A DNA stretch of 46,230 bases, taken from Thermoplasmata archaeon (GTDB taxonomy: Archaea; Thermoplasmatota; Thermoplasmata; Lutacidiplasmatales; SKW197). The stretch spans positions 1 to 46,230 of the forward strand of contig JAVZCK010000016.1 of the NCBI GenBank assembly GCA_038874435.1. Direction: 5' to 3'. The stretch's first letter is position 1. The number at the start of each line of letters is the position of its first letter. The notes under the pieces were generated by a model that saw only the letters and a program-made list of their open reading frames with translations, had not been told where the DNA came from and did no database searches. A program made the position numbers and the translations under genes. Shown piece by piece: positions 6,066 to 39,357 of the stretch.

Positions 6066-7136
6066 TTACAATTTGGGAAGACCCAGGAACTCTGTTGCCA
6101 TTTCAAGGAACGTGTAGTCCCTTACCCTTGTGAGATGTTTCACGGAGTACAACACAGTGGTTGTGGTCTCAACCATCTTCGGATTTGCCTTTGCAATCAC
6201 ACCTAACCTCTTTCTGTGGCACTCAACATACTCTCCATAGGAGCGATGTGCTGACAGGTACACCCCATCCGTGTTGCTTGCCACTGCAAAGAATGCAGGT
6301 ATCTCTGTGAGTGCTTCGGCGAGAATACTGTTTTTCTTTTCCATCTCAATCCCTATGTTGAAGCGATCGTGGGTAAGAGCCACAACTTCCAATCCAAGTT
6401 TCTCAAGGGAAAGGTCCCTCGCTGGTAAAATCACTTTGTTTGCAAACCGCCTTCTCATTGATGCCACTGCCTGCCTTGAGAGCTTTGTTTTATCTGAAAC
6501 CACCACGTCTGTGCCTTCTGGCGCTGCAAGGAAACCTGCAACGCCCATCCTCTCTTTCTTTGTAAGCGAAATTACTTCCTTCACGCTAAAAAGAGGATGT
6601 GGCTCTAGTTTTCTCTCACTTGCTGGCACATCAAGGTCGAACATTGCACTGACCACTGGAGAGAAGTCAAATAAATTGAACACATAGGTACCTTCCGCTG
6701 GGAAAAACACTGTGTTCCAGTTTTCAAACGAGAGGCCTTTTGCCTGCATATTCGCCTTCAATTTCTCGTTTGTTTTTATGGCAGTAGTGTAGTTTTTCTC
6801 ATACCCAATTGCTATGTCTGCAATGCCATCAGTAAGCAGGTAAAAGGTGCTTTTTCCAACATCCTTGTAAAAATTCTCGCCCACACCTTTTCCGAGCCGA
6901 TTCAACGACCCATAGCTCACTGTCAGCAATTCTGCACCCATATTAGGTAAGAGAGCAATATTTACTCCCCTGTAAATCCCCATATTCCTCAATCTTCGTC
7001 TTATTGCCGTCACTGTAGAAAGCTTCAGTTTGGTCATTTTCGCAATGTCTTTGTCTGTTGAACTCGGATATTTCGCGATGTAATACAGAGCATATTTCTC
7101 CTTTGGTGTTAAGATGTCCTTTCTCCGCATGTGCAT
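6066..7136 (-). CDS. Transcriptional regulator with two tandem HTH-plus-sensor repeats
   Basis: A 356-residue protein made of two related halves. The first begins LTPKEKYALYYIAKYP with an HTH running to STVTAIRRRLRN. The second, near residue 190, begins LTKKERMGVAGFLAAP with an HTH running to QAVASMRRRFAN. Each HTH is followed by ~120 residues of alpha/beta sequence that also look alike, suggesting gene duplication and fusion into a pseudo-dimer. I cannot name the family. It is divergent from deoC across 161 nt that hold a TATA box for each gene plus small palindromes, so it may control the deoC operon and itself. Very close TATA spacing (about 23 nt) suggests a leaderless start at 7136; a second ATG at 7130 is possible. 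Confidence 0.75.
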   Translation of the reverse strand: MHMRRKDILTPKEKYALYYIAKYPSSTDKDIAKMTKLKLSTVTAIRRRLRNMGIYRGVNIALLPNMGAELLTVSYGSLNRLGKGVGENFYKDVGKSTFYLLTDGIADIAIGYEKNYTTAIKTNEKLKANMQAKGLSFENWNTVFFPAEGTYVFNLFDFSPVVSAMFDLDVPASERKLEPHPLFSVKEVISLTKKERMGVAGFLAAPEGTDVVVSDKTKLSRQAVASMRRRFANKVILPARDLSLEKLGLEVVALTHDRFNIGIEMEKKNSILAEALTEIPAFFAVASNTDGVYLSAHRSYGEYVECHRKRLGVIAKANPKMVETTTTVLYSVKHLTRVRDYTFLEMATEFLGLPKL

Positions 7137-7153
7137 AAGTATATCATAGAGAG

Positions 7154-7163
7154 ATATTAATTT
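7154..7163 (-). promoter_or_regulatory. Putative TATA box of the two-repeat regulator
   Basis: Minus strand AATTAATATC, centred about 23 nt from ATG 7136, consistent with a leaderless transcript. Confidence 0.4.
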
Positions 7164-7190
7164 TTTGGTTTTGACATGAGCCTCTATTAT

Positions 7191-7203
7191 TCTAAATTTT
7201 AGA
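7191..7203. promoter_or_regulatory. Candidate operator palindrome
   Basis: TCTAAATTTTAGA is a 6+1+6 palindrome in the middle of the divergent regulator/deoC region, between the two TATA boxes. In A/T-rich DNA such palindromes arise by chance, so this is only a candidate binding site for the regulator at 6066-7136. Confidence 0.25.
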
Positions 7204-7265
7204 TTTATTGCTATTTAGATTTGTTATTGAGTCTATTAGCACATTCCCTATCCCATCCCCAATAA

Positions 7266-7278
7266 CCTTTATTTATAC
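7266..7278 (+). promoter_or_regulatory. Putative TATA box of the deoC operon, followed by an inverted repeat at the start codon
   Basis: CTTTATTTATAC is centred about 26 nt before ATG 7298, implying a leaderless mRNA and deciding this start over an upstream in-frame ATG at 7208. Between the box and the ATG, AGTTA (7283-7287) and TAACT (7293-7297) form an inverted repeat over the expected transcription start, where a repressor could block initiation. Confidence 0.5.
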
Positions 7279-7297
7279 TCTCAGTTATCAGGTAACT

Positions 7298-8242
7298 ATG
7301 TACCTGCGAATTTCCAAATCTGAGCTGGCTAAAATCCCCTCAAAACTTACGAAAGAAAAGGTTGCGGGCTTGATAGACCACACGGAGCTCAAACCCCATG
7401 TTCTGACAAAGAAAATTCATTCCTTATGTGACGAGGCAGAAAGATATGGATTTGCATCCATTTGTGTGAATTCTGCACGTGTAAATGAGGCAGTGGAATA
7501 CATTAAGGCAAAGGAGTACGATGTGCTCGTGTGCTCAGTTGTGGGCTTCCCGCTTGGACAGATGAAAATTGAGGCAAAGGCATTTGAAACAAAGCTAGCA
7601 GTGGAAGATGGTGCTGAGGAAATTGATACTGTGATAAATGTAGGAAAACTGAGGGAGCTAAGCACTGCGAAAGGTGAGGAGAAAGAGAAGATACATGCCT
7701 ACCTTTTAAAGGATGTTGGAGAGGTTGTGAAAGCAGCGGATGGCAAAACTGTGAAGGTAATTTTAGAGACAGGTTTTCTCACAGACGAAGAGATTACCGA
7801 GGGCTGCAAGATAAGTGTTGAGGCGGGTGCCCATTTTGTGAAAACATCGACTGGCTTTGGGCCAATGGGCGCGCTTCCTGCACATCTGAAGTTGATGCGA
7901 GAGACAGTTGGTAGAAAGAAAGGAGTGAAGGCATCTGGAGGCGTTACAAATTTTCTTGATATGTTGCGATGCATCTATGCTTGTGCAAATGAGGATGAAC
8001 TTCTAAATCCAGTTTACTTTAGAGTAGGCACAAGCTCTGGCATTAACATCGTGAACACTGTTTCCTGGCTCAAATACACTGATAACTGGCTTATTGATGA
8101 GGTTCCATGCAGATACTGCCCGAGTAATTTTGTGTCAAAGTTGCCAGAGGAGATAAAAGAGTATTATGTGGCAAAGTGCAGGAATTGCCAAATTCTGACG
8201 CCAGTTGAAATTGAGGAAAGGAGGAAGCATCACAAACTGTAG
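7298..8242 (+). CDS. deoC: Deoxyribose-phosphate aldolase with C-terminal zinc-ribbon-like tail
   Basis: A 314-residue DeoC. Key features are LIDHTELKPH near the N terminus, VVGFPLGQMKIEAK, EIDTVINVGKL, and FVKTSTGFGP with the Schiff-base lysine. The enzyme cleaves 2-deoxyribose-5-phosphate to acetaldehyde and glyceraldehyde-3-phosphate. Typical archaeal DeoC is about 220-260 residues. This one carries ~45 extra residues with two CXXC pairs (PCRYCPSNF and KCRNCQIL), which look like a small zinc site. The next gene, an aldehyde:ferredoxin oxidoreductase, starts 12 nt downstream, so the acetaldehyde made here could be oxidised by its neighbour. Confidence 0.93.
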   Translation: MYLRISKSELAKIPSKLTKEKVAGLIDHTELKPHVLTKKIHSLCDEAERYGFASICVNSARVNEAVEYIKAKEYDVLVCSVVGFPLGQMKIEAKAFETKLAVEDGAEEIDTVINVGKLRELSTAKGEEKEKIHAYLLKDVGEVVKAADGKTVKVILETGFLTDEEITEGCKISVEAGAHFVKTSTGFGPMGALPAHLKLMRETVGRKKGVKASGGVTNFLDMLRCIYACANEDELLNPVYFRVGTSSGINIVNTVSWLKYTDNWLIDEVPCRYCPSNFVSKLPEEIKEYYVAKCRNCQILTPVEIEERRKHHKL

Positions 8243-8253
8243 GAGGCGAAAAA

Positions 8254-10020
8254 ATGAATGGATGGTGTGGAAAATTATTGAGAGTCAACCTTACTGAGAA
8301 AACTGCGAAAGTTGAGAAATTAGACGAAGAAATACTGCGAAATTTTATTGGTGGCAGGGGTTTAGGTGCAAAGCTTCTTTTTGATGAAGTGAAGCCGGAG
8401 ACAGAACCACTTTCACCTGAAAATAAGCTGATTTTCACAGTGGGACCACTCACAGCTACAGGTGCACCGACTGGTGGTAGATATTCAATAACAAGCAAAT
8501 CTCCGCTAACTGGGACAATCTTTGATTCGAATTCTGGGGGGCATTTTGGCCTGGAAATTAAAAAGGCGGGTTATGATGCAATTGTGATTGAGGGGAAAGC
8601 AGAAAAACTCACTTATCTCTTTCTTAACGATGAGAATGTACGATTTGAAGATGCTTCCAGCATGGCAGGATTGGATACACATTCAACCACGGAAAAAGTG
8701 CTCTCAGAAACAAACGAGAAGGCAAAGGTGGCTTGCATTGGTCCAGCTGGCGAAAAGCTAGCGTTGGTCAGTTGCATAATCAACGACAAACACAGGGCAG
8801 CAGGTAGAGGAGGACTGGGTGCAGTTATGGGTTCAAAGAAGCTGAAGGCAATTGCAGTGCTGGGCTCAGGGACACCTGTGATTACACATCCAGACAGATT
8901 TGAGGCAGCGAAAAAACTAGCTCTGGAGGCAATTGCGAAAAACCCAGTGACAAAAGATGCATTGCCAAATTATGGGACTGCTATTCTTGTGAATATCATC
9001 AACGAAATTGGGGCATTGCCCACAAGAAACTATCAGGAAGGAACTTTCAAGGATGCGGATGCAATCTCTGGTGAAACTCTACGTGAGCGAATTTTCGTGA
9101 GGCGAAGTGCGTGTGCACACTGTCCAATAGCGTGTGGGAGAGTAACAAAAGCAGGAGGCGAGGAAGGAGAGGGGCCAGAATATGAGACAGTTTGGGCTTT
9201 TGGTGCTGATTGTGGCATTAACGACATTGAGAAGATTGCTCTCGCCAACTACAAGTGCAATCGCTATGGGCTGGATACGATTTCAACCGGCGCTACAATC
9301 GCCTGTGCAATGGAGTTGAGCGAGAGAGGTGTGATTACTGACTACATAAGATTTGGAAATGCAGATACAGTGCTCCAGCTCATTGATAAGATTGCAAATT
9401 TGGAGGGAATTGGAGAAAAGCTAGCAAAGGGCTCGCTCAGATTTGCAAAGGAGTATGGCGCAGAGGAATACTCAATGAGTGTGAAGGGATTAGAATTGCC
9501 AGCGTATGACCCTAGAGGTGTGCAGGGTATGGGATTGTCCTACGCCACTTCCAATCGTGGTGGCTGTCATTTGAGGGGTTACATGACTGCACCAGAAGTG
9601 CTTGGTAATCCCTACATGACTGACAGATTGAAAACCGAGGGAAAGGCAGGGCTCACTGTGTTGCTCCAGAACATCTCTGCGGCTGTAGATTCACTCGTGC
9701 TTTGCAGATTCTCACAGTTTGGTTTAAATCCTGAACATTATGCAGAAATGCTTTCCGCTGCAACTGGCGTTGAATACACAGACACCGATTTGTTGCTTGT
9801 GGGTGAAAGAATTTACAATCTTGAACGGCTGTACAATGTGAGAGCTGGTGTTGTGAAAGACACGCTGCCAAAACGGTTACTCACGGAAAAGCTGAAGGAA
9901 GGCCATTCAAAAGGGTATGTCGTGGAGCTGGAAACCATGCTAAAGCAATATTATGAAATAAGGGGCTGGGATGAAAATGGTGTGCCAAAAGAAGAAACGG
10001 TAAAACGAGTTGGTTTGTAA
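8254..10020 (+). CDS. aor: Tungsten-type aldehyde:ferredoxin oxidoreductase
   Basis: A 588-residue member of the AOR family. The N terminus MNGWCGKLLRVNLTEK and FIGGRGLGAKLLFDE bind the bis-pterin cofactor. The [4Fe-4S] ligands are in SACAHCPIACG (CX2CX3C at about residues 286-293), with a fourth Cys in SLVLCRFSQF near residue 482. Family enzymes oxidise aldehydes to acids and reduce ferredoxin in the cytoplasm. Which aldehyde is used cannot be told from motifs, but the placement 12 nt after deoC makes acetaldehyde the obvious candidate. It is preceded by GGAGG (8243-8247), a good ribosome binding site, and followed after 9 nt by the PEPCK-like gene. Confidence 0.93.
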   Translation: MNGWCGKLLRVNLTEKTAKVEKLDEEILRNFIGGRGLGAKLLFDEVKPETEPLSPENKLIFTVGPLTATGAPTGGRYSITSKSPLTGTIFDSNSGGHFGLEIKKAGYDAIVIEGKAEKLTYLFLNDENVRFEDASSMAGLDTHSTTEKVLSETNEKAKVACIGPAGEKLALVSCIINDKHRAAGRGGLGAVMGSKKLKAIAVLGSGTPVITHPDRFEAAKKLALEAIAKNPVTKDALPNYGTAILVNIINEIGALPTRNYQEGTFKDADAISGETLRERIFVRRSACAHCPIACGRVTKAGGEEGEGPEYETVWAFGADCGINDIEKIALANYKCNRYGLDTISTGATIACAMELSERGVITDYIRFGNADTVLQLIDKIANLEGIGEKLAKGSLRFAKEYGAEEYSMSVKGLELPAYDPRGVQGMGLSYATSNRGGCHLRGYMTAPEVLGNPYMTDRLKTEGKAGLTVLLQNISAAVDSLVLCRFSQFGLNPEHYAEMLSAATGVEYTDTDLLLVGERIYNLERLYNVRAGVVKDTLPKRLLTEKLKEGHSKGYVVELETMLKQYYEIRGWDENGVPKEETVKRVGL

Positions 10021-10029
10021 GGTGAGAAC

Positions 10030-11799
10030 ATGCTCATAGAAATAGAAAAACTAACAATAGAGAGCTTTCTTGAAATTTTTGAGAAAATTCAGGAAATAAA
10101 GAGGAAAGCAGGGATAGAAGGTGTCTTGAACAATCCCCCAGACCTTCTTGAGCGTGCAAAGCTTTATGGAATACAGTATAAAAACGGGTCCTGGGGCTGG
10201 GCTTCCAATATCTGGAGCAGAAGTGCAGAAGGAAGTGTGGTGATAGAGAAAAACGAGGACTTGAAGCTAGAACACAAGGAATTGATGCGAACTGTGCTTG
10301 AGCAAATTCTCTGCAGGAAGCTCATCCGGGTAGATGCAACTCTTGGAATGCCTGGAACTCCTGTAGCAATGCATGCCCGACTTTATGAGGATGCCCAATT
10401 TCCAGACATTGCCTTCCGCTGGAAGGAACTGAATTTTCCAGCATCACCAGATGAGAAGCCAGATGCTATAATCTTCCACATTCCCCACTATCTGGAAAAT
10501 CCAAATGTGCCTGGGAAAAAAGAGATGTTAAAGGTACTTCGTTTTCCCAACCATAATTACACAATTATAACAGCCACTTCCTATCAGGGGGAGGTGAAAA
10601 AAGGTTTCTTGACTCACTGGATAAACTTTGTTTACCAGAAAGGGGGCACAGGTGAGCATGCCTCCCTCAAGGAATTTACAGTGAAGCGGGTGGATGGCAG
10701 CGAGAAGAGAATTGCAATGTGCGTCTGGGGATTAAGCGGGAGTGGTAAATCAACCCATGGGCTTTACATTCTCAACGAGCGCACCAACAAAATCTTCATT
10801 GAGAAATTCGGAATAGACATGGCAAAATATGTTTACAATCAGGTGATAAAGAACGATGACATCGTAGCAATCTTCCCAGACAGGGTTTATGGCTCAGAAA
10901 AGGGCTCATGGACGAAAACCGAGGATGTGGATGAGAATCAGGTTGCAATGTACACTGCAGGCATGTCACCAAGAGCACTCCATGAAAACACGGAGTTTGA
11001 CGAAAATGGAAATGTGAGCTTTGCTGGCAAGCTGTTCCAATACCATGGAAAACTCAACCGCAATGCAAGAAGTGTTTTCTATCTCGAAGATACTGGCTAC
11101 TACGATGGGAATGTTAATTCTAGTGTGCCCCTTAACATGGCGGTTTTTATTAGCCCGGGATACACATCTGACTATGCATGGGTGAAAATAAGCAACCCAG
11201 AATTTGCAGCGAAAGTTCTGGCAGATGGGAGGACCATTGGGCATCCAGCCCAGAGTAGGGTAGGTGTAGGGCAGGAGAAGTATGAGAGCAGGTATTGTCT
11301 GCCTTTCACGATGGGTGCAACCAATGCCCAGCATGTGACAAGATTCTACGAGTTTTTGGTAGCAAGGGAGAAAGAGCCAGTAGATGTTTATCTGATCAAT
11401 ACAACCGGTCGTATCGGCGCTGAATACGAATGGGTAGAAAGAGAGATTGGAGGCAGAAAGTTGCTTGTGCCCACTGCAAAATTCGTGGAAAAGGACGGAA
11501 AAAAGAAGCCTGTGGGAGGCACAGGCCCAAGCATTGAGGAGACCGAATTGTTTCTGTTCCAGGCAGCTAGAGGTGCTGTGAAGTATGCTCCACATCCAAT
11601 TTTCGGAGACAAAGTGCTGGTGCCAGTTCATGTGGAAGGTCTCACTGAAGAGAGATTGAAACAGTTTGACCCATTCACTTATCGTACAAGAGAAGAAATG
11701 CAAAAATTGCTGCGAGCTCAGATTGAGTTGAGCAAGTATTACCTCTCAATCCAGTGTCCAGGCCTACCTGAAAAAATACTGAATGCGATGGATTTCTGA
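10030..11799 (+). CDS. Divergent ATP-type phosphoenolpyruvate carboxykinase-like protein
   Basis: A 589-residue protein with the PEPCK architecture but weak conservation. TSYQGEVKKGFLTHWINF corresponds to the segment before the P-loop in ATP-dependent PEPCK, WGLSGSGKSTHG (about 233-244) is the kinase-1a loop (canonical GLSGTGKTT), and NDDIVAIF then EKGSWTK match the places of the metal-binding Asp pair and the EGGCYAK motif. Several catalytic residues are therefore altered, notably the EGGCYAK Cys. It may be a PEPCK paralogue with another substrate; I recall a DUF4914 family of this look but cannot confirm membership. Third gene of the deoC operon. RBS GGTGA lies just upstream. Whether it makes PEP or is a different kinase is open. 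Confidence 0.7.
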   Translation: MLIEIEKLTIESFLEIFEKIQEIKRKAGIEGVLNNPPDLLERAKLYGIQYKNGSWGWASNIWSRSAEGSVVIEKNEDLKLEHKELMRTVLEQILCRKLIRVDATLGMPGTPVAMHARLYEDAQFPDIAFRWKELNFPASPDEKPDAIIFHIPHYLENPNVPGKKEMLKVLRFPNHNYTIITATSYQGEVKKGFLTHWINFVYQKGGTGEHASLKEFTVKRVDGSEKRIAMCVWGLSGSGKSTHGLYILNERTNKIFIEKFGIDMAKYVYNQVIKNDDIVAIFPDRVYGSEKGSWTKTEDVDENQVAMYTAGMSPRALHENTEFDENGNVSFAGKLFQYHGKLNRNARSVFYLEDTGYYDGNVNSSVPLNMAVFISPGYTSDYAWVKISNPEFAAKVLADGRTIGHPAQSRVGVGQEKYESRYCLPFTMGATNAQHVTRFYEFLVAREKEPVDVYLINTTGRIGAEYEWVEREIGGRKLLVPTAKFVEKDGKKKPVGGTGPSIEETELFLFQAARGAVKYAPHPIFGDKVLVPVHVEGLTEERLKQFDPFTYRTREEMQKLLRAQIELSKYYLSIQCPGLPEKILNAMDF

Positions 11800-11809
11800 A
11801 GGCACCACT

Positions 11810-11820
11810 ACCTTTAATAT
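11810..11820 (+). promoter_or_regulatory. Putative TATA box of the MBF1 gene
   Basis: CCTTTAATAT is centred about 34 nt before ATG 11850, in the short gap after the PEPCK-like gene, so MBF1 can be expressed on its own. Confidence 0.4.
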
Positions 11821-11849
11821 TCCCTCTTCCTTCTCCCGTGTGTGAAAGC

Positions 11850-12335
11850 ATGCACTGTGAGATGTGTGGGATGGAAACCAAGGTTCTAAGAAAAGTGCTT
11901 GTTGAGGGCACTGTGCTATCACTTTGTCCCAAGTGTGCGAAATATGGTAAGGAGATATCGGAAGCACCCAAATCCGAAATTCCTGCACCTTTCAGGAAGC
12001 CCCAGGAAAGGCAAGAAGTAGACATCTATTCAAAAATGCCAGAAGAAGAGCTTGTTGAGGACTACAATGAACGCATCAGGAAGGCAAGAGAGGCAAGGGG
12101 CTGGAGTCAGGAAGAACTTGGAAAACGCATCAACGAAAAAAAATCCATAATTGCAAAGATTGAAACGAAGGAGTTTAGACCACCAGATGCACTTGCAAAA
12201 AAACTCGAGGCAACGCTCAACATAAAGCTTCTCGAAAAAGTTAATGAAAATGTGGCTCTAAAAACATCTGGAAGAGACAAAACACTCACACTGGGAGATA
12301 TGATTGTAATAAGGGAGGAGAAAAAGAAGAAATGA
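11850..12335 (+). CDS. mbf1: Multiprotein bridging factor type 1 (archaeal MBF1)
   Basis: A 161-residue protein with the archaeal MBF1 layout: an N-terminal zinc ribbon (HCEMCG ... SLCPKCAKYG), a basic/acidic linker, then a Cro/C1-type HTH at about residues 70-125 (IRKAREARGWSQEELGKRI, KKSIIAKIETKEFRP). It binds the transcription machinery and, in archaea studied, also ribosomal subunits. An in-frame GTG four codons earlier exists, but the ATG at 11850 fits the zinc-ribbon start. The stop codon is followed at once by the hairpin-repeat mosaic. Confidence 0.92.
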   Translation: MHCEMCGMETKVLRKVLVEGTVLSLCPKCAKYGKEISEAPKSEIPAPFRKPQERQEVDIYSKMPEEELVEDYNERIRKAREARGWSQEELGKRINEKKSIIAKIETKEFRPPDALAKKLEATLNIKLLEKVNENVALKTSGRDKTLTLGDMIVIREEKKKK

Positions 12336-12336
12336 A

Positions 12337-12680
12337 GGAAACCTTTTCAGGCTTCGCCCGAAAAGGTTTCATCCAAAAGATGGTAAGACCCAAAATGGAT
12401 AGGTTCGGGGAACCCTTTTGCTCGCTAACGCTCGCAAAAGCGTTCACGGAAAAAAATGGCAAAAGGGTAAGTTCGGAGATGCTGAAAGCATCCCCTTAGC
12501 ACAGGTACCATGGGGTGCCAACCCTTGGGGGTTACCGTAAGGGGCGCAGCCCCTCGTGGTACCGTAGGGTGCAACCCCGATCGTAAGACGGTCGTCCAAT
12601 CTAGAAAAAATTGTTTGCTTCGTTCGGGGATGCCAAAGGCATCCCCTTTACACAGGTACCGTAGGGCGGTTAGCCCCGTT
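12337..12680. repeat. Mosaic of hairpin-forming intergenic repeats, copy 1
   Basis: The whole space between the convergent MBF1 and GAPDH genes consists of short palindromic modules. Module A (12338-12370) is GAAACCTTTTC / GAAAAGGTTTC around a GGC-TTCG-CC loop. Module B (12409-12497) has arms CCCTTTTGC / GCAAAAGGG and ends in the hairpin GGATGC-tgaaa-GCATCC. Module C is a ~26-29 nt unit beginning GGTTACCGTA or GGTACCGTA and carrying a G-run/C-run hairpin: 12504, 12530, 12558 and 12655. The last unit touches the GAPDH stop codon. The same modules recur at 40578-40930. No protein is apparent here. Confidence 0.85.
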
Positions 12681-13713
12681 ACTTTATTATTTTCAGTGTC
12701 CTATTTGTCTTCTCAATGCTCTTGAACTTGTCTGTCTCCAGGTTCATCATTGCTCTAATTGCATCCACATTCTCTGGCACAACATCGCTTTCCTGATGCA
12801 CTGCCTGGGTGTAGTAGAGTTCCCTACCGACAACACTCACACCATCCTGCCAGACAGGAATCTCATAGAGGTCTCCTCTGGGCCTTCCGAGGTCCTTGGC
12901 ATACTCCATCAACTGGGCAGTAGATTCAAATCCATGTTTTGAGTTCACAAGAATCACTCTTGTGGATTTCTTCCAGATATTGATTACATCCTCGGTTTTC
13001 ACTTCCTTTTTCAATGTAACCATCACATTGTGCAGGTGCATGATTGTAGTGGGCACAACCACAGCCATGCTGCTGATGTTTATGCTCGGCACAACGCTCT
13101 GGACATCTGGACCATGATGCGAAGGAACTTTCACTTCTGGCTGAATTGCGTTTATTGGTCCCTTCTTTGAGTCATTTGGGTCTGTGGCTCTGCGCACTAG
13201 CACTACTTTCACATTCTCAATTCCAATCTCGTTGTGTATTGGCACAAGGGTTCTCAGTAAGCCAGTGGTATTGCATGAGACCACACGAACATACTTTGCC
13301 CCGATGCATTTCTCATAGTTTGCAAAGGCATTGAATGAAAGCCCTGTAAGTTTGTGTTTCTCTCCACCTTGGAATATTGCCGGCTTTCCCAGTTCCTCAT
13401 AAACCTTCTTGTAATCCTCACCAGTGGTGCCACCATCTTTCTTCTTGCCAGGTGTTGCATCTACGATGATGTCCGCTTCTTCGAATAAATCTCTAGCAAC
13501 CCCTGCCACCTCAAATCCTGCATCCTTGAATGCCTGGATTTTGTCCTCACTGGCTGCATAAATCTTGAAGCCCTTCTGCATTGCTGTTATGCACTCGTAT
13601 GTGGGCCTTGTTTTCACAACCCCGATAATCTTCATGTCGTCCTGCCAGCTCACTGCATCCGCCACTCTCTTTCCGATGGTTCCATATCCGTTTATTGCTA
13701 CCTTCACGACCAT
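12679..13713 (-). CDS. gap: Type II glyceraldehyde-3-phosphate dehydrogenase (archaeal)
   Basis: A 344-residue archaeal GAPDH. The N terminus VKVAINGYGTIGKRVADA is the dinucleotide-binding loop, and VVSCNTTGLLR holds the catalytic Cys. It interconverts glyceraldehyde-3-phosphate and 1,3-bisphosphoglycerate with NAD(P). In many archaea this form works mainly in gluconeogenesis. GGGGATT sits upstream of the ATG as a ribosome binding site, and a TTTAATTA box lies near 13750 on the minus strand. Glyceraldehyde-3-phosphate from DeoC would be a natural substrate. The gene converges on MBF1 with the repeat mosaic between. Confidence 0.96.
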   Translation of the reverse strand: MVVKVAINGYGTIGKRVADAVSWQDDMKIIGVVKTRPTYECITAMQKGFKIYAASEDKIQAFKDAGFEVAGVARDLFEEADIIVDATPGKKKDGGTTGEDYKKVYEELGKPAIFQGGEKHKLTGLSFNAFANYEKCIGAKYVRVVSCNTTGLLRTLVPIHNEIGIENVKVVLVRRATDPNDSKKGPINAIQPEVKVPSHHGPDVQSVVPSINISSMAVVVPTTIMHLHNVMVTLKKEVKTEDVINIWKKSTRVILVNSKHGFESTAQLMEYAKDLGRPRGDLYEIPVWQDGVSVVGRELYYTQAVHQESDVVPENVDAIRAMMNLETDKFKSIEKTNRTLKIIK

Positions 13714-13816: not shown

Positions 13817-14374
13817 ATGCAGACCAAGAATGTGATAAAATCTGTGATAATGCTGGGCGATGCGGCTGTAGGAAAGACAAGCCTTGTCAGAAGGTTTGTT
13901 GTAGACCAGTTTGATGATACATACATCACAACACTGGGTGCCAAGCCAATGGAGAAGGATGTGAAAATTGTAGGTAAAGACGCAATTGTGGAATTGCGAA
14001 TGATAATCTGGGATATAATGGGACAGAAGGACTATGAAAGGGTTCATAAGGACATGTTCGAAGGTGTCAATGGTGGCATCCTTGTCTGCGATGTGACGAA
14101 GCCAGAGACACTGAAAAACCTTGGAGAATACTGGATTCCAAAATTTTTTGAGTATGCTGGAAAGGTTCCCCTAGTGTTGCTAGCTAATAAGGTCGACCTA
14201 AAAGACCAGATGAAAATTAATATAAAAGATATTCAGGCTCTCCTTGCTAGCTTCCAAATGAAAGATGGATGTTCACCACCTTTCTATCTGACATCGGCAA
14301 AGACAGGCGAAAATGTCCAGGTTGGATTTGAGAAACTTGGAGAACTTCTGATAAAGGACATGGGTCTTCTTTAG
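13817..14374 (+). CDS. Small Ras/Rab-like GTPase
   Basis: A 185-residue small GTPase with all five G motifs: G1 GDAAVGKTS (14-22), a switch I Thr in DTYITTLGA, G3 IWDIMGQ (the DxxGQ form of Ras/Rab proteins), G4 ANKVDLKD and G5 TSAKTGENV. It has no obvious lipidation motif or membrane helix, so it is probably cytoplasmic. Such Ras-superfamily GTPases occur in several archaeal groups, and their roles there are mostly unknown. It is followed after 6 nt by a small protein gene and then by an AAA/TPR protein carrying a possible longin/roadblock-like insert, the type of domain that binds small GTPases. A functional pair is inferred. Confidence 0.9.
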   Translation: MQTKNVIKSVIMLGDAAVGKTSLVRRFVVDQFDDTYITTLGAKPMEKDVKIVGKDAIVELRMIIWDIMGQKDYERVHKDMFEGVNGGILVCDVTKPETLKNLGEYWIPKFFEYAGKVPLVLLANKVDLKDQMKINIKDIQALLASFQMKDGCSPPFYLTSAKTGENVQVGFEKLGELLIKDMGLL

Positions 14375-26681: not shown

Positions 26682-28205
26682 ATGCAAGTCGTGGAGATAG
26701 ATGGCGAGAACCTTACCGTTGCGAAATTCATTGCAGTGAGCAGAGAGCATGCAAAGGTGAAACTTGCAAAAAAGGCAGAGAAGAGAATCGCTGACTCCAG
26801 AAAAGTGATTGAAAAAATTATTGCCAGCAGCGAGCTTGCATATGGAATAAAGACAGGTTTTGGAGAACTGTGCCAGGTTTCAATTCCACAGGAAGACATT
26901 CTCAGATTGCAGGAAAATCTTGTGCGAAGCCATGCCTGTGCTGTGGGAGCGCCATTGGCAGAGGAGGTTGTACGTGGCGTTATGCTTTTGCGTGCAAATA
27001 CATTTGCAAAAGGTTTTTCTGGGGTCAGATTAGAACTTGTCCAGCTGCTGATCGAAATGCTCAACCGCAACATCACACCAGTGGTTTATGAGCAGGGTTC
27101 TGTGGGTGCAAGTGGAGATCTGGCTCCACTGGCTATGGTTGCACTTGCGTTGATTGGCGAGGGCGAGGTGATTTACAAGGGCGAAAGAATGCGGGCTACC
27201 GAGGCATTTGCCAGGGAAAAGCTCAGACCTTTGAAGCTTGAGGCAAAGGAAGGGCTTGCCCTCATTAACGGCACGAGTGTGATGACTTCAATCGCTGGTT
27301 TTGCTGTGCATGAAAGTGAGCTTCTCTTGAAAACAGCTTTAATTGCTACAATGATGTCGCTGGAAGCACTGAAAGGGACGAATCAGGCGTTTAGGAAGGA
27401 GGTATCTGAAGTTAGAAAACACACTGGCCAGAAAAAATGTGCTGAAATTTTTATGAGAATGCTGGAAAAAAGTGAAATTCTTGAGTCACACAAGAACTGC
27501 AAGAAAGTGCAGGATGCCTACACATTGCGCTGTGCTCCGCAAGTGCTCGGTGCAGTATGGGATACACTGGATAATGTGAGAAAAATCGTGGAAACTGAGA
27601 TGAATTCTGTTACAGACAACCCACTAATCTTACCAGAGGGCAAATCTCTTTCCTGCGGAAATTTTCATGGGGAACCAGTTGCACTTGCAATGGATTTTCT
27701 GGCAATTGCCCTTGCAGTGATGGGAAATTTTTCGGAGCGGAGAACTGCAAGACTTGTGGACATGCACCTGAGCGGGCTGCCTCCTTTTCTGACTGAAAAG
27801 AGCGGGCTTAACTCTGGCTACATGATTCCCCAGTATGTGGCTGCTTCCCTTGCATCCGAGAATAAGATTCTAGCACATCCAGCAAGTGCAGACACAATTT
27901 CAACCTCTGCAAATCAGGAGGACCATGTGAGCATGGGTACAACAGCCGCCAGGAAATGTCTTCAGATTTGCGGGAATGTGAGACACATTTTAGCAATTGA
28001 GTTGCTTTGTGCGGCTCAAGGCCTTGATTTTCATAAACCATTAAAGCCAGGCATCGGGGTGCTGAAAGCATGGAAGTTGCTTAGGAGTCATGTGCCCCAT
28101 CTCGATGAGGACAGGGTGCTTTATCCAGAAATTCAGAAGATTGCGGATTTGATTGCAAAAGGAGAGTTTGTGCGGGTTGTGGAAAGGGAAATTGGGAAGA
28201 TGTAA
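26682..28205 (+). CDS. hutH: Histidine ammonia-lyase
   Basis: A 507-residue MIO enzyme of normal length. The cofactor-forming Ala-Ser-Gly is in GSVGASGDLAPLA (~142-145), the catalytic Tyr loop is AYGIKTGFGELC, LVRSHACAVGAPL carries the His typical of histidine-specific lyases, and NQEDHVSMGT carries the Gln-Glu pair of HAL rather than PAL/TAL. It converts histidine to urocanate and ammonia. No other hut genes (urocanase, imidazolonepropionase) are in this window, so the fate of urocanate is not shown. It appears to be transcribed alone. Confidence 0.93.
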   Translation: MQVVEIDGENLTVAKFIAVSREHAKVKLAKKAEKRIADSRKVIEKIIASSELAYGIKTGFGELCQVSIPQEDILRLQENLVRSHACAVGAPLAEEVVRGVMLLRANTFAKGFSGVRLELVQLLIEMLNRNITPVVYEQGSVGASGDLAPLAMVALALIGEGEVIYKGERMRATEAFAREKLRPLKLEAKEGLALINGTSVMTSIAGFAVHESELLLKTALIATMMSLEALKGTNQAFRKEVSEVRKHTGQKKCAEIFMRMLEKSEILESHKNCKKVQDAYTLRCAPQVLGAVWDTLDNVRKIVETEMNSVTDNPLILPEGKSLSCGNFHGEPVALAMDFLAIALAVMGNFSERRTARLVDMHLSGLPPFLTEKSGLNSGYMIPQYVAASLASENKILAHPASADTISTSANQEDHVSMGTTAARKCLQICGNVRHILAIELLCAAQGLDFHKPLKPGIGVLKAWKLLRSHVPHLDEDRVLYPEIQKIADLIAKGEFVRVVEREIGKM

Positions 28206-29983: not shown

Positions 29984-32557
29984 CTACATTTCTTCATAGT
30001 TAATTCCTATCTGATCAAGTGCCTCCTTGATTTTTTGCTCGTACTCTTGAGGAGTCATGGAGCCGTCAGTTGCCTTGAGTGTTATCTCTGCCTTTTTGAA
30101 TTTGCTTAAAATGAATCTCAACACATTCAATAAATCTGGGAGCGTTTGACTTGAGTCCAGTTCAACTCTTAATGACAGATGTTTAAGTGTTTTAGTATCT
30201 TCAGCTTGAGTCTGTTGCATGGTATAGTGTTTTTCATGCAGAGATTTTGCGGGCATTGATTGTGTTTTTTGGAAATCAGGTTTTGCACTCACCTCAGTAA
30301 TCTCGGCCATCTCGGATATTTTATCTTTGGATTCCTCCGATGCAATTAAAATCTCGTCAGATGTGAAACGAACTGAAATCCCTGACTTTTTGAAGTCTGT
30401 GCATCTTGGTTCATTGTTTTCATAGAAACCTAAACCAAAAATACCCTTTTCGACACCAGCTTGAATGCTTTTTATCAAAACCTCTCGGCTCCGTAACCTT
30501 GGTTCGCCAGGTGTTCTGTAACTTGCATGAAGAATCTGTTCTGTATGAACATACTTTTTATCTTTAAGGAATTTTTCCTTGATTGCCAATGGATCAATAC
30601 TTACCAGAATTTCATTTTCCTGAACGAGAGTTTCGTAGATGATGGCACCTAAATCTCTCTTTTCACCGTAAGTGGGAACACCCAAGTCAAGGATTTTGTG
30701 GTTATTTTTTTGGGGCAAGGCCACAATTCTATATGTCCTTCTTGTGAGATCTAAAATATCAGATTCTAATTCTTTAGTTTTTCTTCTTGCCTCCTCCTTT
30801 TGTTCATCGCTCAGCGAGAGATTTTTATCATTGATTATTGAAACATATGCAAGGTATTCTCTTATTTTTTGCTCGAGATTCACATTTTCGGTTTCAGATG
30901 GTAAAAGAAAGAAAACCGTGTTTGAGTTTATTCTATGACTTGTACCCTTATTTCTAATTATTGAATCAACTACATTCTTGTTTTCTTCCATTAATATTAC
31001 AAGCTTAAAATCCTCATTGTCAGGTATGTTGTTTGTATCTGTTTCTCCGATGTATATTCTAAACTCTCCACTTTTTACAATTCTTTCAAGGCATTTTTTT
31101 TCTTTTTCCAAAATTTCATCTTTTGAAATGTTTTCCATTCTATTAATTAGAATCTTATTGATGTTTGGGATATTGGAAAATCTGATTCTTTCATTTTGTC
31201 TTTGGATGTAAAAAAGTTCATTCTGAAGTTTCTCTACAGCTTCGGTAATAACCTTTAGTGGGTAGTCTATTATCAGGGCTTGGCGTGTGATCTCTTCTAT
31301 TTTAGCACCATTTTCAGGAGATGTTGAGAATGAGTAGAGAAAAATCGTAGTAGCAGCTCTTGTGGCAAACCTTAGCTTCTTATATGTTTGGCCAAGTGCG
31401 TTATCGCACACCTTTGCACCAGCATTCTTTCCCGTAATATCTTGAGATAATACGCTGTTGTACTCCTCGCCGACATACTTGATAAATTCAGCTCTAATAT
31501 CTGGATTTGAAAGGTCAAAATCCGCTAAACTTATGTAAGGGATTTTTTCTTTCTGAAGCGAGGAAATCACCAGAGCAAGAATTCTAAGGACTCCGCGCGT
31601 ACGCTGGAATTTGGGAAAACTTCCCCAGCGGTGGTAGAGCACATCAATTACTTCAGGCAGGAAGGGGTAAGATTCTAAAAAACGATCCCGGTATTCTGCT
31701 GGCTCCACCCCCTGAGGGAGAATTTCTTTTTCGGATGCATATTTAACAAATTTTTCAACAACACCTCTCGCTTCATCTTCGTCAACAGAGCTAAAAAGCC
31801 TGGTACGCACCACCTTGGCAATTTCGGAATCTGCTACAGGTGTAGATATTTTCTCAACTCTACCTGAAATTTTTTGAAGCTTAGAATAAAATTTCTCTGC
31901 AGAACTGTCATAATGTTCAGTTATGCTTGTGGGCATTGTCAAAACTAAACATGCATTTCCTAATGTGCACACAGTTTCAGTGAGTTCTTGCATAAATGCA
32001 ATCGTTTGCTCAGCAAGTGTGCTTTTACCAACTGCTACTCCTGCCGCCTTGGTAACATACTCCAGGACTTCATCCATGAGAATTAGAAGAGGTGTATGCT
32101 TTGAGAGGACCTCTCTTAACTTGTCCATGCCAGGGGCAATATTGCCTGAAAGAATCTCTGGCTCCTCTTTGTTCTCAAGTTGTTTCTCTATGAGTCCCCA
32201 AAGCGTATCCTCTTTTGCGTTAAGACTTGTTCCCACCACCACTACTGTCCTTACATTCCATTCTTTTGCTTTGTGATAGAGAGCAATGAGTGTGTGCGTT
32301 TTCCCACCACCAAAAGGCGTGGTCAACTGAATAACTGCATCACCACCTTTGCCCTCAACCCTTTTTCTTACTGCGTTTATTATTTCTTCCAGTCCATGTG
32401 TCATGTAGGTTTTTGAAAAAAACTTTGCTGCATCTTTATATTCATCGGGTCCACGACCGTTGTACACCTCCCACAAATTTGCCGCAAAAATTTCCATTGT
32501 GAGGTTGCCCTCCTGTATATCTTTGTGGGGTATCGCTATTTCTGAAAAAGATTTCAT
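29984..32557 (-). CDS. DUF499-family ATPase of a helicase-methylase-ATPase defence operon
   Basis: An 857-residue P-loop ATPase. Walker A is TPFGGGKTHT (80-89) and Walker B LLILMDEVLEYV (~157-168). Family-typical stretches include VVVVGTSLNAKEDTLWG and YHRWGSFPKFQRTRGVLRIL. The C-terminal ~120 residues look like an added adaptor domain (LRVELDSSQTLPDLLNVL). DUF499 proteins sit next to DUF1156 methylases and SNF2 helicases in bacterial and archaeal defence islands (called Hma in PADLOC, from memory). The precise activity is unknown. The ATG directly follows the TAA of the methylase C half (TAAATG), so it is the last gene of the five- or six-gene unit. Confidence 0.88.
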   Translation of the reverse strand: MKSFSEIAIPHKDIQEGNLTMEIFAANLWEVYNGRGPDEYKDAAKFFSKTYMTHGLEEIINAVRKRVEGKGGDAVIQLTTPFGGGKTHTLIALYHKAKEWNVRTVVVVGTSLNAKEDTLWGLIEKQLENKEEPEILSGNIAPGMDKLREVLSKHTPLLILMDEVLEYVTKAAGVAVGKSTLAEQTIAFMQELTETVCTLGNACLVLTMPTSITEHYDSSAEKFYSKLQKISGRVEKISTPVADSEIAKVVRTRLFSSVDEDEARGVVEKFVKYASEKEILPQGVEPAEYRDRFLESYPFLPEVIDVLYHRWGSFPKFQRTRGVLRILALVISSLQKEKIPYISLADFDLSNPDIRAEFIKYVGEEYNSVLSQDITGKNAGAKVCDNALGQTYKKLRFATRAATTIFLYSFSTSPENGAKIEEITRQALIIDYPLKVITEAVEKLQNELFYIQRQNERIRFSNIPNINKILINRMENISKDEILEKEKKCLERIVKSGEFRIYIGETDTNNIPDNEDFKLVILMEENKNVVDSIIRNKGTSHRINSNTVFFLLPSETENVNLEQKIREYLAYVSIINDKNLSLSDEQKEEARRKTKELESDILDLTRRTYRIVALPQKNNHKILDLGVPTYGEKRDLGAIIYETLVQENEILVSIDPLAIKEKFLKDKKYVHTEQILHASYRTPGEPRLRSREVLIKSIQAGVEKGIFGLGFYENNEPRCTDFKKSGISVRFTSDEILIASEESKDKISEMAEITEVSAKPDFQKTQSMPAKSLHEKHYTMQQTQAEDTKTLKHLSLRVELDSSQTLPDLLNVLRFILSKFKKAEITLKATDGSMTPQEYEQKIKEALDQIGINYEEM

Positions 32558-33784
32558 TTACTGTAACCTCCTTTGCTTTACTTTTTTGATTATTCTTTCT
32601 TTTGCCAATAGAAAGCCTTCTAATAACTTTTTCTCATGACTTTCATTTGGAAGCGTCTCAGAGATAGATTGGGCAACTCTCCATATAACATCACTATCAC
32701 CATACTGGGTTTTTTGAAGTAAAGTCACAATTTCCTCTTCCACATCCTTCTCCCAGTATATAAGACACAGGTGGAGCACATCAACCAATTCTGCAGGATT
32801 ATTTAGGTGCTCTATCTTGCGCTCATGCGGTCCTAACACATGCACAAATTCCTTCTCCTTTTTGATGCAAGTGTTTTTGTTCCAGTAATCCTCAAGGGTT
32901 ATACCCACGCTCATAGCCAGCTTTTTTGCTTCGTCGAATTCCACTTTTGCTTCACCGCATGTCCATCTATACAGAACATAGAATCTAGTGAGTGGAGTGA
33001 TATTACTGCCAAAACCATTTGAAAGAATTTTACTCACCGCGTACTCAGTTGCAATTGTGCGAATATCTGCAAGTATTTTATATGCCCTGATGATATTGCC
33101 AGCATAGTCCATAACTTTTTCATACTTACCGAACACCTCAATTCCTGCACCAATTGCTGCTATGAAAAAGTCGGTACCACTAATTCCTTCTTTCCAGAGG
33201 TCATCAAGTTTTTTGTTAAGATAGTTGCGAAGTTCCTCCTTCACTTCATTGTAAAAACCTACATCGTTTCTTTCCATCTTTCGAGCAACAATATAAACTG
33301 ACGAGGCAAGTGCTGCAGAGTCCTTGGCTCTAAGCCTTGCCTCCATCTCAGTGGATATGGGCCATGAGGCAGTAATTACGAGCCCAGAACTCAGCAAGGC
33401 GTTGATTATCGTTTCCCAGCCAGCAGTAGATTTATGTGCATAGACTATAATAGCAATTCCATTCGGCTTAAGAATGCGGTATATCTCTTTGAATGCTAAA
33501 GCTAGCCTCTCTTCAAAAAATTTTTTGCCTGCTTCCAGCCCTCCTTCTTTGTGTGTATAGGCAACAATTTCCTCGCTCTTTGGTGTGAGAGGTGTGACAA
33601 AAAGGTCTGGGTAAAGATGCCCGATTGTGCGTTTAAGCCACACATAGAAAAAGTCAGAGAGATAAGAATATGGCACATTGTCATAGTACGGAGGGTCCGT
33701 GAACACAGCATCAAAATAGTTATCTGGATAAGGGAGAGAGGTGGCGGATGCCTGTGTTATTTTGGGAACACTTTGTTTTTTCAT
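32558..33784 (-). CDS. DUF1156 DNA methylase, C-terminal half (catalytic DPPY part)
   Basis: A 408-residue protein that starts in the middle of a methylase. After only ~10 residues come ASATSLPYPDNYFDAVFTDP and the catalytic motif DPPYYDNVPY (D30-Y33), then SDFFYVWLKRTIG and a Rossmann end (ILKPNGIAIIVYAHKS). It lacks the SAM-binding DPFAGGG motif, which is in the separate gene at 34411-35988. The C-terminal ~200 residues are the usual DUF1156-protein tail (RFYVLYRWTCGEAKVEFDEA, LVDVLHLCLIYWEKD). Its ATG overlaps the HepT stop as ATGA. It probably must join its N half to methylate DNA at exocyclic amino groups; complementation is inferred. Confidence 0.88.
   Translation of the reverse strand: MKKQSVPKITQASATSLPYPDNYFDAVFTDPPYYDNVPYSYLSDFFYVWLKRTIGHLYPDLFVTPLTPKSEEIVAYTHKEGGLEAGKKFFEERLALAFKEIYRILKPNGIAIIVYAHKSTAGWETIINALLSSGLVITASWPISTEMEARLRAKDSAALASSVYIVARKMERNDVGFYNEVKEELRNYLNKKLDDLWKEGISGTDFFIAAIGAGIEVFGKYEKVMDYAGNIIRAYKILADIRTIATEYAVSKILSNGFGSNITPLTRFYVLYRWTCGEAKVEFDEAKKLAMSVGITLEDYWNKNTCIKKEKEFVHVLGPHERKIEHLNNPAELVDVLHLCLIYWEKDVEEEIVTLLQKTQYGDSDVIWRVAQSISETLPNESHEKKLLEGFLLAKERIIKKVKQRRLQ
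33734..33769 (-). repeat. Junction segment copy 2 (start of methylase C half)
   Basis: Encodes VPKITQASATSL, at residues 6-17 of the C half. It resembles VPTIPQSPDTSL near the end of the N half (34447-34482): V, P, I, Q, T, S, L align at 7 of 12 positions, and 8 nt (ACCTCTCT) are identical at one end. This may be a decayed duplication flanking the inserted toxin-antitoxin genes. Confidence 0.45.
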
Positions 33785-34125
33785 CTTTCCTCCTCCAGTA
33801 TCTTATTAATTTGGAGTTTAAGCTTTGGAAGTTCATTGGTAACGATCTCCCACACTATTCTATAATCCACTACAAAGTATCCATGGATTAAACGATTTCT
33901 TAACGCTATAATCTTACCCCATGGAATTTCTGGGTATTTACATCTTATTTCATCGGGTAATAGATTTGCTGACTCTCCAATAATCTCAAGATTTCTCACC
34001 ACTGCATCCTTGGTTTTCATGTCGTCAAGAAATTCTTCATAAGAGTAATTTTTTATGTATGATTCTATTTTTTCTATTGCCTCTATAATATCTCTTACAA
34101 GAAGTTCCCGGTTCCTCTTATACAT
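33781..34125 (-). CDS. hepT: HepT-like HEPN toxin (DUF86)
   Basis: A 114-residue all-helical HEPN protein. The active-site motif is intact: R76-N-R-L-I-H81-G-Y83, i.e. RX4HXY, followed by VVDYRIVWEIV. HepT proteins are RNases that cleave RNA or tRNA ends and are silenced by AMP groups put on the motif Tyr by the partner MntA. The partner is the preceding gene, with which it overlaps by 8 nt. Its stop overlaps the start of the methylase C half (ATGA). A complete, apparently active toxin lying inside a split methylase gene is unusual. Confidence 0.9.
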   Translation of the reverse strand: MYKRNRELLVRDIIEAIEKIESYIKNYSYEEFLDDMKTKDAVVRNLEIIGESANLLPDEIRCKYPEIPWGKIIALRNRLIHGYFVVDYRIVWEIVTNELPKLKLQINKILEEER

Positions 34126-34414
34126 GAACCAAATCCTCCTTTATACTATCCCAGAGTAATGATTTTTGCTTGACTGCAGTTGCAGTAAGAATGTCAACCT
34201 CGCAACCCAGTAGTTTCTCAAGTTCGTCCCACAACTCAAAGAATTTAAGCCCAATAGGTCTTTCAAGTTCAACCAAAATATCCACATCGCTTGTTTCCTT
34301 TGCTTCTCCCCTTGCACACGAACCAAATATGCCCAGAATTACAACTCCATACCTCTCCCTTATCTCCTCCTTATGCTCTACCAGTATTTTTTTTATTTCC
34401 TGAACCGTTTTCAT
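34118..34414 (-). CDS. mntA: MntA-like minimal nucleotidyltransferase antitoxin
   Basis: A 98-residue nucleotidyltransferase with GS(31-32), ten residues, then D43-V-D45 (GSX10DXD), and a third acidic residue in CEVDIL (D74). This is the MNT fold that transfers AMP to HepT Tyr residues. Its ATG overlaps the stop of the methylase N half by 4 nt (ATGA at 34411-34414), and its end overlaps HepT by 8 nt. Antitoxin before toxin is the normal order for MntA-HepT. Production is thus tied to translation of the methylase N half. Confidence 0.92.
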   Translation of the reverse strand: MKTVQEIKKILVEHKEEIRERYGVVILGIFGSCARGEAKETSDVDILVELERPIGLKFFELWDELEKLLGCEVDILTATAVKQKSLLWDSIKEDLVHV

Positions 34415-35988: not shown

Positions 35989-35991
35989 TTT

Positions 35992-38900: not shown

Positions 38901-39357
38901 TCAACTTTAATTCTTTGATTATAAGCCCAGCCATTATTGTTTTCCCTGCACCAGGGTCATCTGCTATGAGAAATCTTATCCTTGGCATCTTCAAAATATA
39001 TCCATATACTGCTTCAATCTGATGTGGTAGTGGATCGACTTTCGAAACATTAAGGGCAAGCAACGGGTCATAGAGCGATGCATACCTATATCTTATCGTT
39101 TCCATTGCTAGAAAAACCTTCCATGCAGGATTTTTAAATTTTCCTTCCTCAGAGATGTATTTCAATCTCTCAATTTGTTCCTTTGTAAGTATTACATCTA
39201 CATGATGACCACTGTACTGTTGCATGCCAATGATTTCTATACTCTCTCCTCTTTCTCGCACAGATTTTACTACCACTGGCTCTGGCCAATATGGTCCTGA
39301 AATCACCATGCCATTTTTCAATTTTTCTTTCACTACTTCACCTCTCCTAATTTCCAC
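35992..39357 (-). CDS. SNF2-family helicase with C-terminal DUF3883/PD-(D/E)XK-like domain
   Basis: A 1121-residue DNA translocase. Motif I is DDPGAGKTIMAG (133-144), motif II VDEAHKMS, motif III LTATPHKG, and motif VI RMGRIHRYGQ. A long helical region follows. Near residues 1040-1100, LGYDIRSTDASG and YIEVKARVDYG give a D...ExK pattern, then TRNEWFKAKRFG, typical of DUF3883, which may be a nuclease-type fold. First gene of the defence unit. The start is GTG with AGGAG six nt upstream; an ATG at residue 17 is an alternative. An ATTTTATTATT stretch (39368-39378) is a bit too close to serve the GTG start, so transcription may come from the gene upstream, 30 nt away. Confidence 0.9.
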   Translation of the reverse strand: MEIRRGEVVKEKLKNGMVISGPYWPEPVVVKSVRERGESIEIIGMQQYSGHHVDVILTKEQIERLKYISEEGKFKNPAWKVFLAMETIRYRYASLYDPLLALNVSKVDPLPHQIEAVYGYILKMPRIRFLIADDPGAGKTIMAGLIIKELKLRGLAKRIMIVCPGHLKDQWMRELKEHFDENFQVVDRHTFENVYNLNPWESHNQIITSMDFAKRDEILPALKAVHFDLIIVDEAHKMSAYRYGEKLEMSERYKLGKVLSQITTHLVFLTATPHKGDPENFRLFLDLLEPGFFATEKLIEQSLEDRDNPLFIRRMKEDLKDINGRPLFLPRYVRTVEINLGRESPEEKELYNALSRYVETQYNLALKKDKKRNVAFALVILQRRFASSTYALLKSLERRKHRLEELLANPTRIEEEIREEDIEDVEDMTEEERWKNEETWEVLSASETREELKEEIDTLQSLIERCEKIISEEKEIKLIKLKESLNELREKVQEKENRKIIIFTESRDTLEYLVEKLKSWEYAVNFIHGGMKLRDRVDAEVVFKNETEVLVATEAAGEGINLQFCNLMINYDIPWNPTRLEQRMGRIHRYGQKREVFVHNLVASDTREGSILHKLLMKLEEMRKALGGDKVFDVIGEIIDSKKFAQAMIDAAVNARPPEEIWSEIGPNLEFDEKTRKTIFDCLGESLATRFIDHTAIKRVFQKAKEQRLIPEYTETFFIKAFERAGGRIKRINEHCYTIEEIPGEIRKICENLVNSKNYTQIVRRYPCVTFDKDAMTAYPNCEFLSFGHTLFDGVLEWVEKNFRNCLNSGAIFYDPDGILDGYILFYEGEIKDGTGSTVGKRIFSVYLDDAGYEIVHPSILWDLEEENEPADSEEVDLEQLLERGQNIAERELKTYLEEMEKERVRQCNIKEKYGVASLKDLIERLVGDILSLEKRSEEGEDVDLALKMKQERRKEYIRSLEELKNLIEREKSLTMCGLQPLGVIRVKPLGKKEQGMKRDIEIERIGMKEAMEFEKNAGRIPEDVSAQNLGYDIRSTDASGNVRYIEVKARVDYGDVALTRNEWFKAKRFGSDYYLYVVYNAGTKPELYILQDPARNLRPVELVSVVRYVIHPDEIIKKGG

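Follow-up and report, generated by a model that had tools for sequence, protein, structure and literature searches.

A deoxyribose-5-phosphate aldolase (DeoC) carrying a C-terminal tail with four cysteines is encoded next to an aldehyde:ferredoxin oxidoreductase (AOR) in several groups of archaea. The adjacency of the two genes is beyond chance; they recur in archaea as a unit that features a distinctive tailed form of DeoC. It was studied in a window of 46,230 nucleotides from a Thermoplasmata archaeon, in which a third gene, encoding a PEPCK-like protein, follows in the same direction. In our preferred reading, to which we assign a probability of about 0.62, deoC and the AOR gene form a dedicated two-gene module for conversion of acetaldehyde to acetate and reduced ferredoxin, the tail aids the pairing of the two enzymes, and the PEPCK-like gene was acquired separately.

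Organization of the locus

The genome containing the window comprises 43 contigs (2.16 Mb; G000), and a sister genome (G001) was available for comparison. Open reading frames (ORFs) and family profiles located three genes on the + strand in a single direction: deoC (7298 to 8242), the AOR gene (8254 to 10020), and the PEPCK-superfamily gene (10030 to 11799). This is the order and strand given in the original prediction, which placed 12 and 9 nucleotides between the genes; the second gap is indeed 9 nucleotides, but the first is 11. The deoC gene extends from the ATG at 7298 to a stop codon ending at 8242 and encodes 314 amino acids. A mechanical list of ORFs offers an alternative TTG start at 7208. 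The ATG is preferred because the sister homologue begins at the equivalent ATG and because both genomes have kept a TTTATTTATA stretch, located 20 to 30 nucleotides 5' of the ATG in the divergent intergenic region (7137 to 7297).

On the other side of this region, a gene on the - strand (6066 to 7136) encodes a 356-residue protein, a homologue of which also adjoins deoC in the sister genome. Its weak winged-helix match (HTH_24, 20.5 bits, below the cut-off of 21.9) makes a role as local regulator possible. The scan for promoters and terminators, based on bacterial-type models, returned counts at the level of shuffled sequence and was uninformative. A Pfam scan of 17 neighboring ORFs, a portion of those in the window, detected no nucleoside phosphorylase, phosphopentomutase, or deoxyribokinase. 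A GAPDH gene had been reported close by. The enzyme is of the type II archaeal form (TIGR01546, 493.8 bits) and its gene is at 12682 to 13713, but on the - strand and behind another gene; since it lies on the opposite strand, its nearness is weak evidence for a functional link.

DeoC and its four-cysteine tail

The window DeoC scored 205.7 bits against TIGR00126, above the curated cut-off of 117.3 bits, with a match covering the full-length core; a tailed DeoC from an Asgard archaeon scores 295.1 bits against the same profile. Residues D110, K182, and K211, the counterparts of E. coli D102, K167 (the Schiff-base lysine), and K201 (the proton-relay lysine), are present. D110 and K182 are kept in 46 of the 46 readable tailed sequences, and K211 in 47 of 47. 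By sequence, the deoC product is a class I deoxyribose-5-phosphate aldolase. It resembles the DeoC family (TIGR00126/PF01791) in its full-length core and in the catalytic Asp/Lys/Lys set, and differs by a tail containing two CxxC pairs beyond the 211 positions of the profile.

The tail (8054 to 8239) contains the motifs PCRYCP and CRNC, hence four cysteines in the pattern PCxxCP...CxxC. The two pairs are separated by 19 residues in the window protein and by 21 residues in all 44 four-cysteine Asgard tails and in the tailed DeoC of G292, a genome of a second Thermoplasmatota class, relative to which the window DeoC also has two loop insertions. Sequence and profile searches of the tail against Pfam and the PDB returned no significant or convincing match; weak zinc-ribbon-like matches, such as ribosomal protein L33 at an E-value of 1.1, were not significant. 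The structure model of the window DeoC was unusable (pLDDT of 46.8). The cysteine tail was not remarked upon in the original prediction and is the most informative feature of the locus.

The aldehyde:ferredoxin oxidoreductase

The 588-residue product of the second gene (P0002) matched AFOR_N (PF02730) with 279.1 bits and AFOR_C (PF01314) with 502.9 bits. It was closest to AOR-type chains (661.6 and 628.2 bits, the latter score of 628 bits being to 1aor), versus 379.5 bits for formaldehyde oxidoreductase, and is of the tungsten type. The match extends over the whole length of the AOR chains (1aor, 9mqx, 9g7j), and the window enzyme shares their cluster cysteines and active-site glutamate and histidine; these chains have 604 to 607 residues and the window AOR is encoded directly behind a tailed deoC. 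The cluster cysteines (C287, C290, C294, C484) and active-site residues (E309, H439), assigned by correspondence with P. furiosus AOR, are kept in 26 of 26 aligned sequences. Assignment as a GAPOR was rejected on score (NF040818, 48.4 bits versus a cut-off of 1300). The window genome encodes eight AFOR paralogues including this enzyme, and another of them, C5, has no deoC beside it.

Recurrence of the deoC-AOR pair

The sister genome keeps the pair. In G292, a four-cysteine-tailed DeoC is followed by an AOR gene whose start codon overlaps the deoC stop codon and within which the contig ends. DeoC was detected in 74 of 379 genomes of the Thermoplasmatota sample, and flanks were read for the loci of 30 of these genomes. 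These Thermoplasmatota loci and those of 28 of the 40 searched genomes that bear the PEPCK-like gene made up a set of 61 DeoC loci, in which the four tail cysteines and an adjoining AOR were both limited to the same three (window, sister, and G292). In the class of G292, DeoC was present in two of 80 genomes, and was tailed and accompanied by AOR in G292 only. The Thermoproteota search detected DeoC in 177 of 398 genomes; among the matches listed, none devoid of an internal stop extended beyond position 265 of 314, and L202, a second locus of G292, was the only one of the 30 loci checked that had an AOR beside DeoC.

The pair also recurs in many Asgard archaea, sampled as 227 genomes of the phylum of G461 (locus L103, Asgard group archaeon), 118 of which had a DeoC match. 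Many of these matches extend through the tail. The first 30 loci all combined a tailed DeoC with an AOR beside it on the same strand, 48 to 57% identical to the window AOR. Further loci were added, untailed ones serving as controls, to reach 97 entries, which represent 96 of the 118 matching genomes (G858 was entered twice and 22 genomes were left out). AOR was encoded directly downstream from four-cysteine-tailed DeoC in 42 of 44 cases, on the same strand and at distances of -9 to +38 nucleotides, versus none of the 22 DeoCs with a cysteine-less tail and none of the 31 classed as untailed. In the two exceptions (G847 and G848), the four-cysteine tail is present but about 8 kb of downstream sequence contains no AOR. 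Since the Asgard sequences are related, 42 of 44 does not amount to 42 independent events. The genes beyond AOR vary between Asgard subgroups.

Five of the 31 entries classed as untailed proved to be misfiled or unreadable: G863 has a cysteine-less tail, G1059 was read in the wrong frame, and the end of a contig truncates G998, G858, and G899, one CxxC pair being visible before the cut in G998. The corrected classes comprise 26 untailed and 23 cysteine-less entries (including G863), and the outcome is unchanged as all five of the entries concerned are without AOR. The downstream sequence is short in two of the controls, with 148 nucleotides in G898 (untailed) and 2 nucleotides in G869 (cysteine-less).

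Phylogeny of DeoC and AOR

A tree of 112 DeoC cores was built by a quick method with midpoint rooting, and many of its forks are open; it included eight of the 22 cysteine-less sequences, and one short core was dropped. One side of a branch labelled 95* holds 46 four-cysteine, eight cysteine-less, and two tailless sequences. The cysteine-less sequences form one group (99*) and have no AOR neighbor. The two tailless sequences (G1036 and G1037), which also have no AOR neighbor, are placed with 38 four-cysteine Asgard sequences (99*). The simplest reading of these placements would be that the tail cysteines and the AOR neighbor were lost together at least twice, the tree leaving the order of events unproved. 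The window DeoC shares approximately 44 to 52% identity with the Asgard and G292 forms to which it was compared. The Thermoplasmatota sequences lie among the Asgard sequences, which fits transfer of the pair. In a tree of 54 AORs, including 37 of 40 Asgard sequences (three short ones were dropped), the deoC-linked enzymes lie near one another, and the window AOR is not separated from the unlinked C5 paralogue.

The PEPCK-like gene

The third gene encodes a 589-residue protein (P0003) that scored 59.8 bits against PF01293, above the gathering cut-off of 26.5, and fell below both NCBIfam PEPCK cut-offs (156.1 versus 369 bits and 25.5 versus 636 bits). A phmmer search of PDB sequences gave no match at an E-value of 0.001. 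A model built from 37 family members (pLDDT of 88.0, pTM of 0.89) matched ATP-PEPCK structures, the best being 1xkv (E-value of 1.4e-25; TM-score of 0.68 by query and 0.77 by target). The protein resembles ATP-dependent PEPCKs in fold and catalytic motif residues, and differs in being approximately 18% identical to the solved enzymes, in its scores, and in the replacement of the late WTR arginine, opposite which a glutamate is aligned in 75 of 80 sequences. The P-loop and equivalents of Y207, K212, K213, H232, D268, D269, K288, and R333, in E. coli numbering, are present in 80 of 80 sequences; locus L140 gave no readable sequence. The first glycine of the P-loop is kept in 79 of 80, and the threonine following the P-loop lysine is a serine in all 80. 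R64 is invariant in the 79 readable sequences, and the automatic alignment places another residue opposite the canonical Arg65. Motif residues and modeled fold together suggest that this diverged member of the superfamily is probably a true PEPCK.

Relatives were collected by scanning named genomes, and the best 80 of 104 were kept. They are 55 to 67% identical to the window protein, except for the sister protein (91%), and come from Thermoproteota, Nitrososphaerota, Bathyarchaeota, Hadarchaeota, Njordarchaeota, Armatimonadota-type, and Omnitrophota bins. The PEPCK tree places the proteins of the window and the sister genome with Omnitrophota and Armatimonadota-type sequences (99*), which suggests lateral arrival, although some bins may hold foreign contigs. 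A search of viral contigs with the window protein gave no match.

The original prediction had made the PEPCK-like gene a member of the operon, a claim that the distribution of the gene does not support. Within an order-level sample of 61 genomes, the gene was detected in the window genome and its sister, and in none of the 59 others. No match was listed for G292, whose membership of the sample searched is presumed. Neither AOR nor deoC was present near the PEPCK-like gene in 79 of the best 80 loci, for which flanks of up to 7 kb, often shorter, were read. The sister locus was the only one that also held both genes, and there 2142 nucleotides containing two ORFs separate AOR from the PEPCK-like gene; the 9-nucleotide adjacency was observed in the window genome only. 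The neighborhoods show no widely common neighbor, the commonest family occurring in seven of the 73 loci read. The PEPCK-like gene was consequently rejected as a conserved member of a pathway. Its distribution, its neighborhoods, and the gap in the sister genome point to a separate enzyme that joined late, and we judge it to be a local addition outside the conserved unit.

Discussion

The observation of the three adjoining genes was confirmed, and its interpretation, as a route from deoxyribose carbon to acetate, is partly supported. The logic of the deoC-AOR step has support from the genomes, since the pair recurs in Asgard archaea and G292 with intact catalytic residues, whereas the three-gene pathway is not supported: no trio was found outside the genus. 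DeoC yields glyceraldehyde-3-phosphate and acetaldehyde, the aldol equilibrium favors the sugar phosphate, and AOR converts acetaldehyde to acetate with ferredoxin. In the proposed scheme, DeoC would split 2-deoxyribose-5-phosphate and the adjoining AOR would oxidize the acetaldehyde, thereby reducing ferredoxin. Because the product of DeoC is toxic and the equilibrium is unfavorable to cleavage, a dedicated AOR would pull the DeoC reaction, remove the reactive product, and conserve its electrons. Intact catalytic residues and recurrent adjacency are what would be predicted for an AOR that uses the acetaldehyde produced by DeoC. The four-cysteine tail may bind a metal, either zinc or an Fe-S cluster, and aid the pairing, for example by docking DeoC on AOR; its association with the AOR neighbor makes docking or an electron-related pairing plausible. 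The PEPCK-like gene would have been acquired separately in the genus and would lie behind the pair, either as a passenger or to be co-expressed with it as an enzyme of central carbon metabolism. A more specific proposal is that the tail binds metal and keeps DeoC attached to a dedicated tungsten AOR, acetaldehyde being channeled from one to the other, and that this system is widespread among Asgard archaea and was transferred to two or more Thermoplasmatota lineages. This proposal is tentative and somewhat more likely to be wrong than right.

AORs are broad-specificity enzymes, and this one, among eight paralogues, could be a general aldehyde scavenger placed near deoC by co-regulation, with no physical pairing and with the tail acting as a structural zinc knot, as the weak zinc-ribbon-like matches might suggest. 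Detoxification only would leave the link between the four-cysteine tail and the AOR neighbor (42/44 versus 0/22 and 0/31) unexplained, and we consider it rather unlikely. The same link could be a product of inheritance only, if one ancestral tailed DeoC had chanced to lie beside AOR and related Asgard genomes had kept both; the grouping of the tailed sequences in the DeoC tree and the relatedness of the Asgard entries are in keeping with this. Against it, the pair is also present in two Thermoplasmatota classes, with a DeoC identity of approximately 44 to 52% to the forms compared, the outer genes change around it, and the branches without the cysteine tail are also without the AOR neighbor, making such an origin unlikely.

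The two other alternatives retain the pair and alter the pathway. PEPCK might be a functional member of the same operon, serving the glyceraldehyde-3-phosphate or oxaloacetate branch, as its short distance from AOR on the same strand and its fully conserved motif residues would allow. This is improbable given that AOR and deoC accompany the gene at a single other locus of 80, at a distance of 2142 nucleotides, and that it has no widely common neighbor. The pair might also run in the reducing direction, AOR reducing acetate to acetaldehyde and DeoC condensing the latter with glyceraldehyde-3-phosphate to form deoxyribose-5-phosphate. The genes and their adjacency would be the same, the aldol equilibrium favors synthesis, and AOR is reversible; nonetheless, reducing acetate is energetically demanding when ferredoxin is at its ordinary potentials, ribonucleotide reductase is the usual source of deoxynucleotides, and we consider this direction improbable.

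The classical bacterial deo operon is deoCABD. The window has deoC in common with it, and the 17 ORFs scanned include no gene resembling deoA, deoB, or deoD, acetaldehyde being presumably handled by a ferredoxin enzyme instead. In Thermococcales, DeoC and an A-domain encapsulin (PF08967) are described as a two-gene operon (PMC8346489). As far as the parts consulted of that study go, both systems are archaeal two-gene DeoC operons with a second conserved component, which is the PF08967 protein in one case and AOR in the other, no PF08967 protein being listed among the window ORFs scanned. The portions consulted of a metabolic reconstruction of MSBL1 place DeoC-based deoxyribose use and AOR enzymes in one lineage, and in them the genes are not linked nor is AOR proposed to take the acetaldehyde of DeoC (PMC4725937). 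In the open-access literature covered, no report of a DeoC-AOR link was found.

If the preferred reading of a dedicated two-gene module is correct, the PEPCK gene of the reported trio should stay out of the pathway, and one of many AOR paralogues would gain a likely natural substrate, which is a standing problem for the AOR family. A tail-docked pair would be a compartment-free answer to acetaldehyde toxicity that links the breakdown of deoxyribose to the reduction of ferredoxin. In Asgard archaea and some Thermoplasmatota, deoxyribose would have its own dedicated path to acetate and reduced ferredoxin, deoxynucleosides or DNA would be a direct energy source, and physical pairing would control the toxic aldehyde.

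Relatives of the PEPCK-like protein and of its gene neighbors

Sequence comparison places the PEPCK-like protein encoded downstream from deoC and the AOR gene (positions 10030–11799; 589 residues) in a highly conserved branch of PEPCKs, represented by 80 loci of relatives (L061–L140, the best 80 of 104). Approximately 135 of the 589 positions of the protein are near-invariant in this set. The branch, common to archaea and some bacterial bins, seems to have been little described.

In the sister genome, G001, the AOR and PEPCK-like genes of locus L013 are separated by approximately 2.1 kb (10569–12710), a stretch that is absent from the window. This interval contains two ORFs, of 519 and 143 aa, for which searches against Pfam returned no convincing family match. 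The genome of the window and G001 each encode eight paralogues of the AFOR family, every one of which pairs in the tree with a paralogue from the other genome.

Among the Asgard loci, L275 (genome G848) and L280 (G847) encode a DeoC with the four-cysteine C-terminal tail, yet no AOR is found within approximately 8 kb downstream. Loci L276, L277, L279, and L281, encoding a DeoC with a cysteine-less tail, have a gene order in common, deoC adjoining two long ORFs that resemble MutS and MutL, a likeness judged by eye.

Other genes of the window

An aromatic amino acid lyase gene is located at 26682–28205 (PF00221, 657.5 bits). A gene for a small Ras-family GTPase (13817–14374), here in an archaeal host, adjoins a gene encoding an AAA/TPR protein. 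Genes for a DUF499 ATPase and a DUF1156 methyltransferase, located near each other on the minus strand (29984–39357), resemble a DNA modification or defense cluster.
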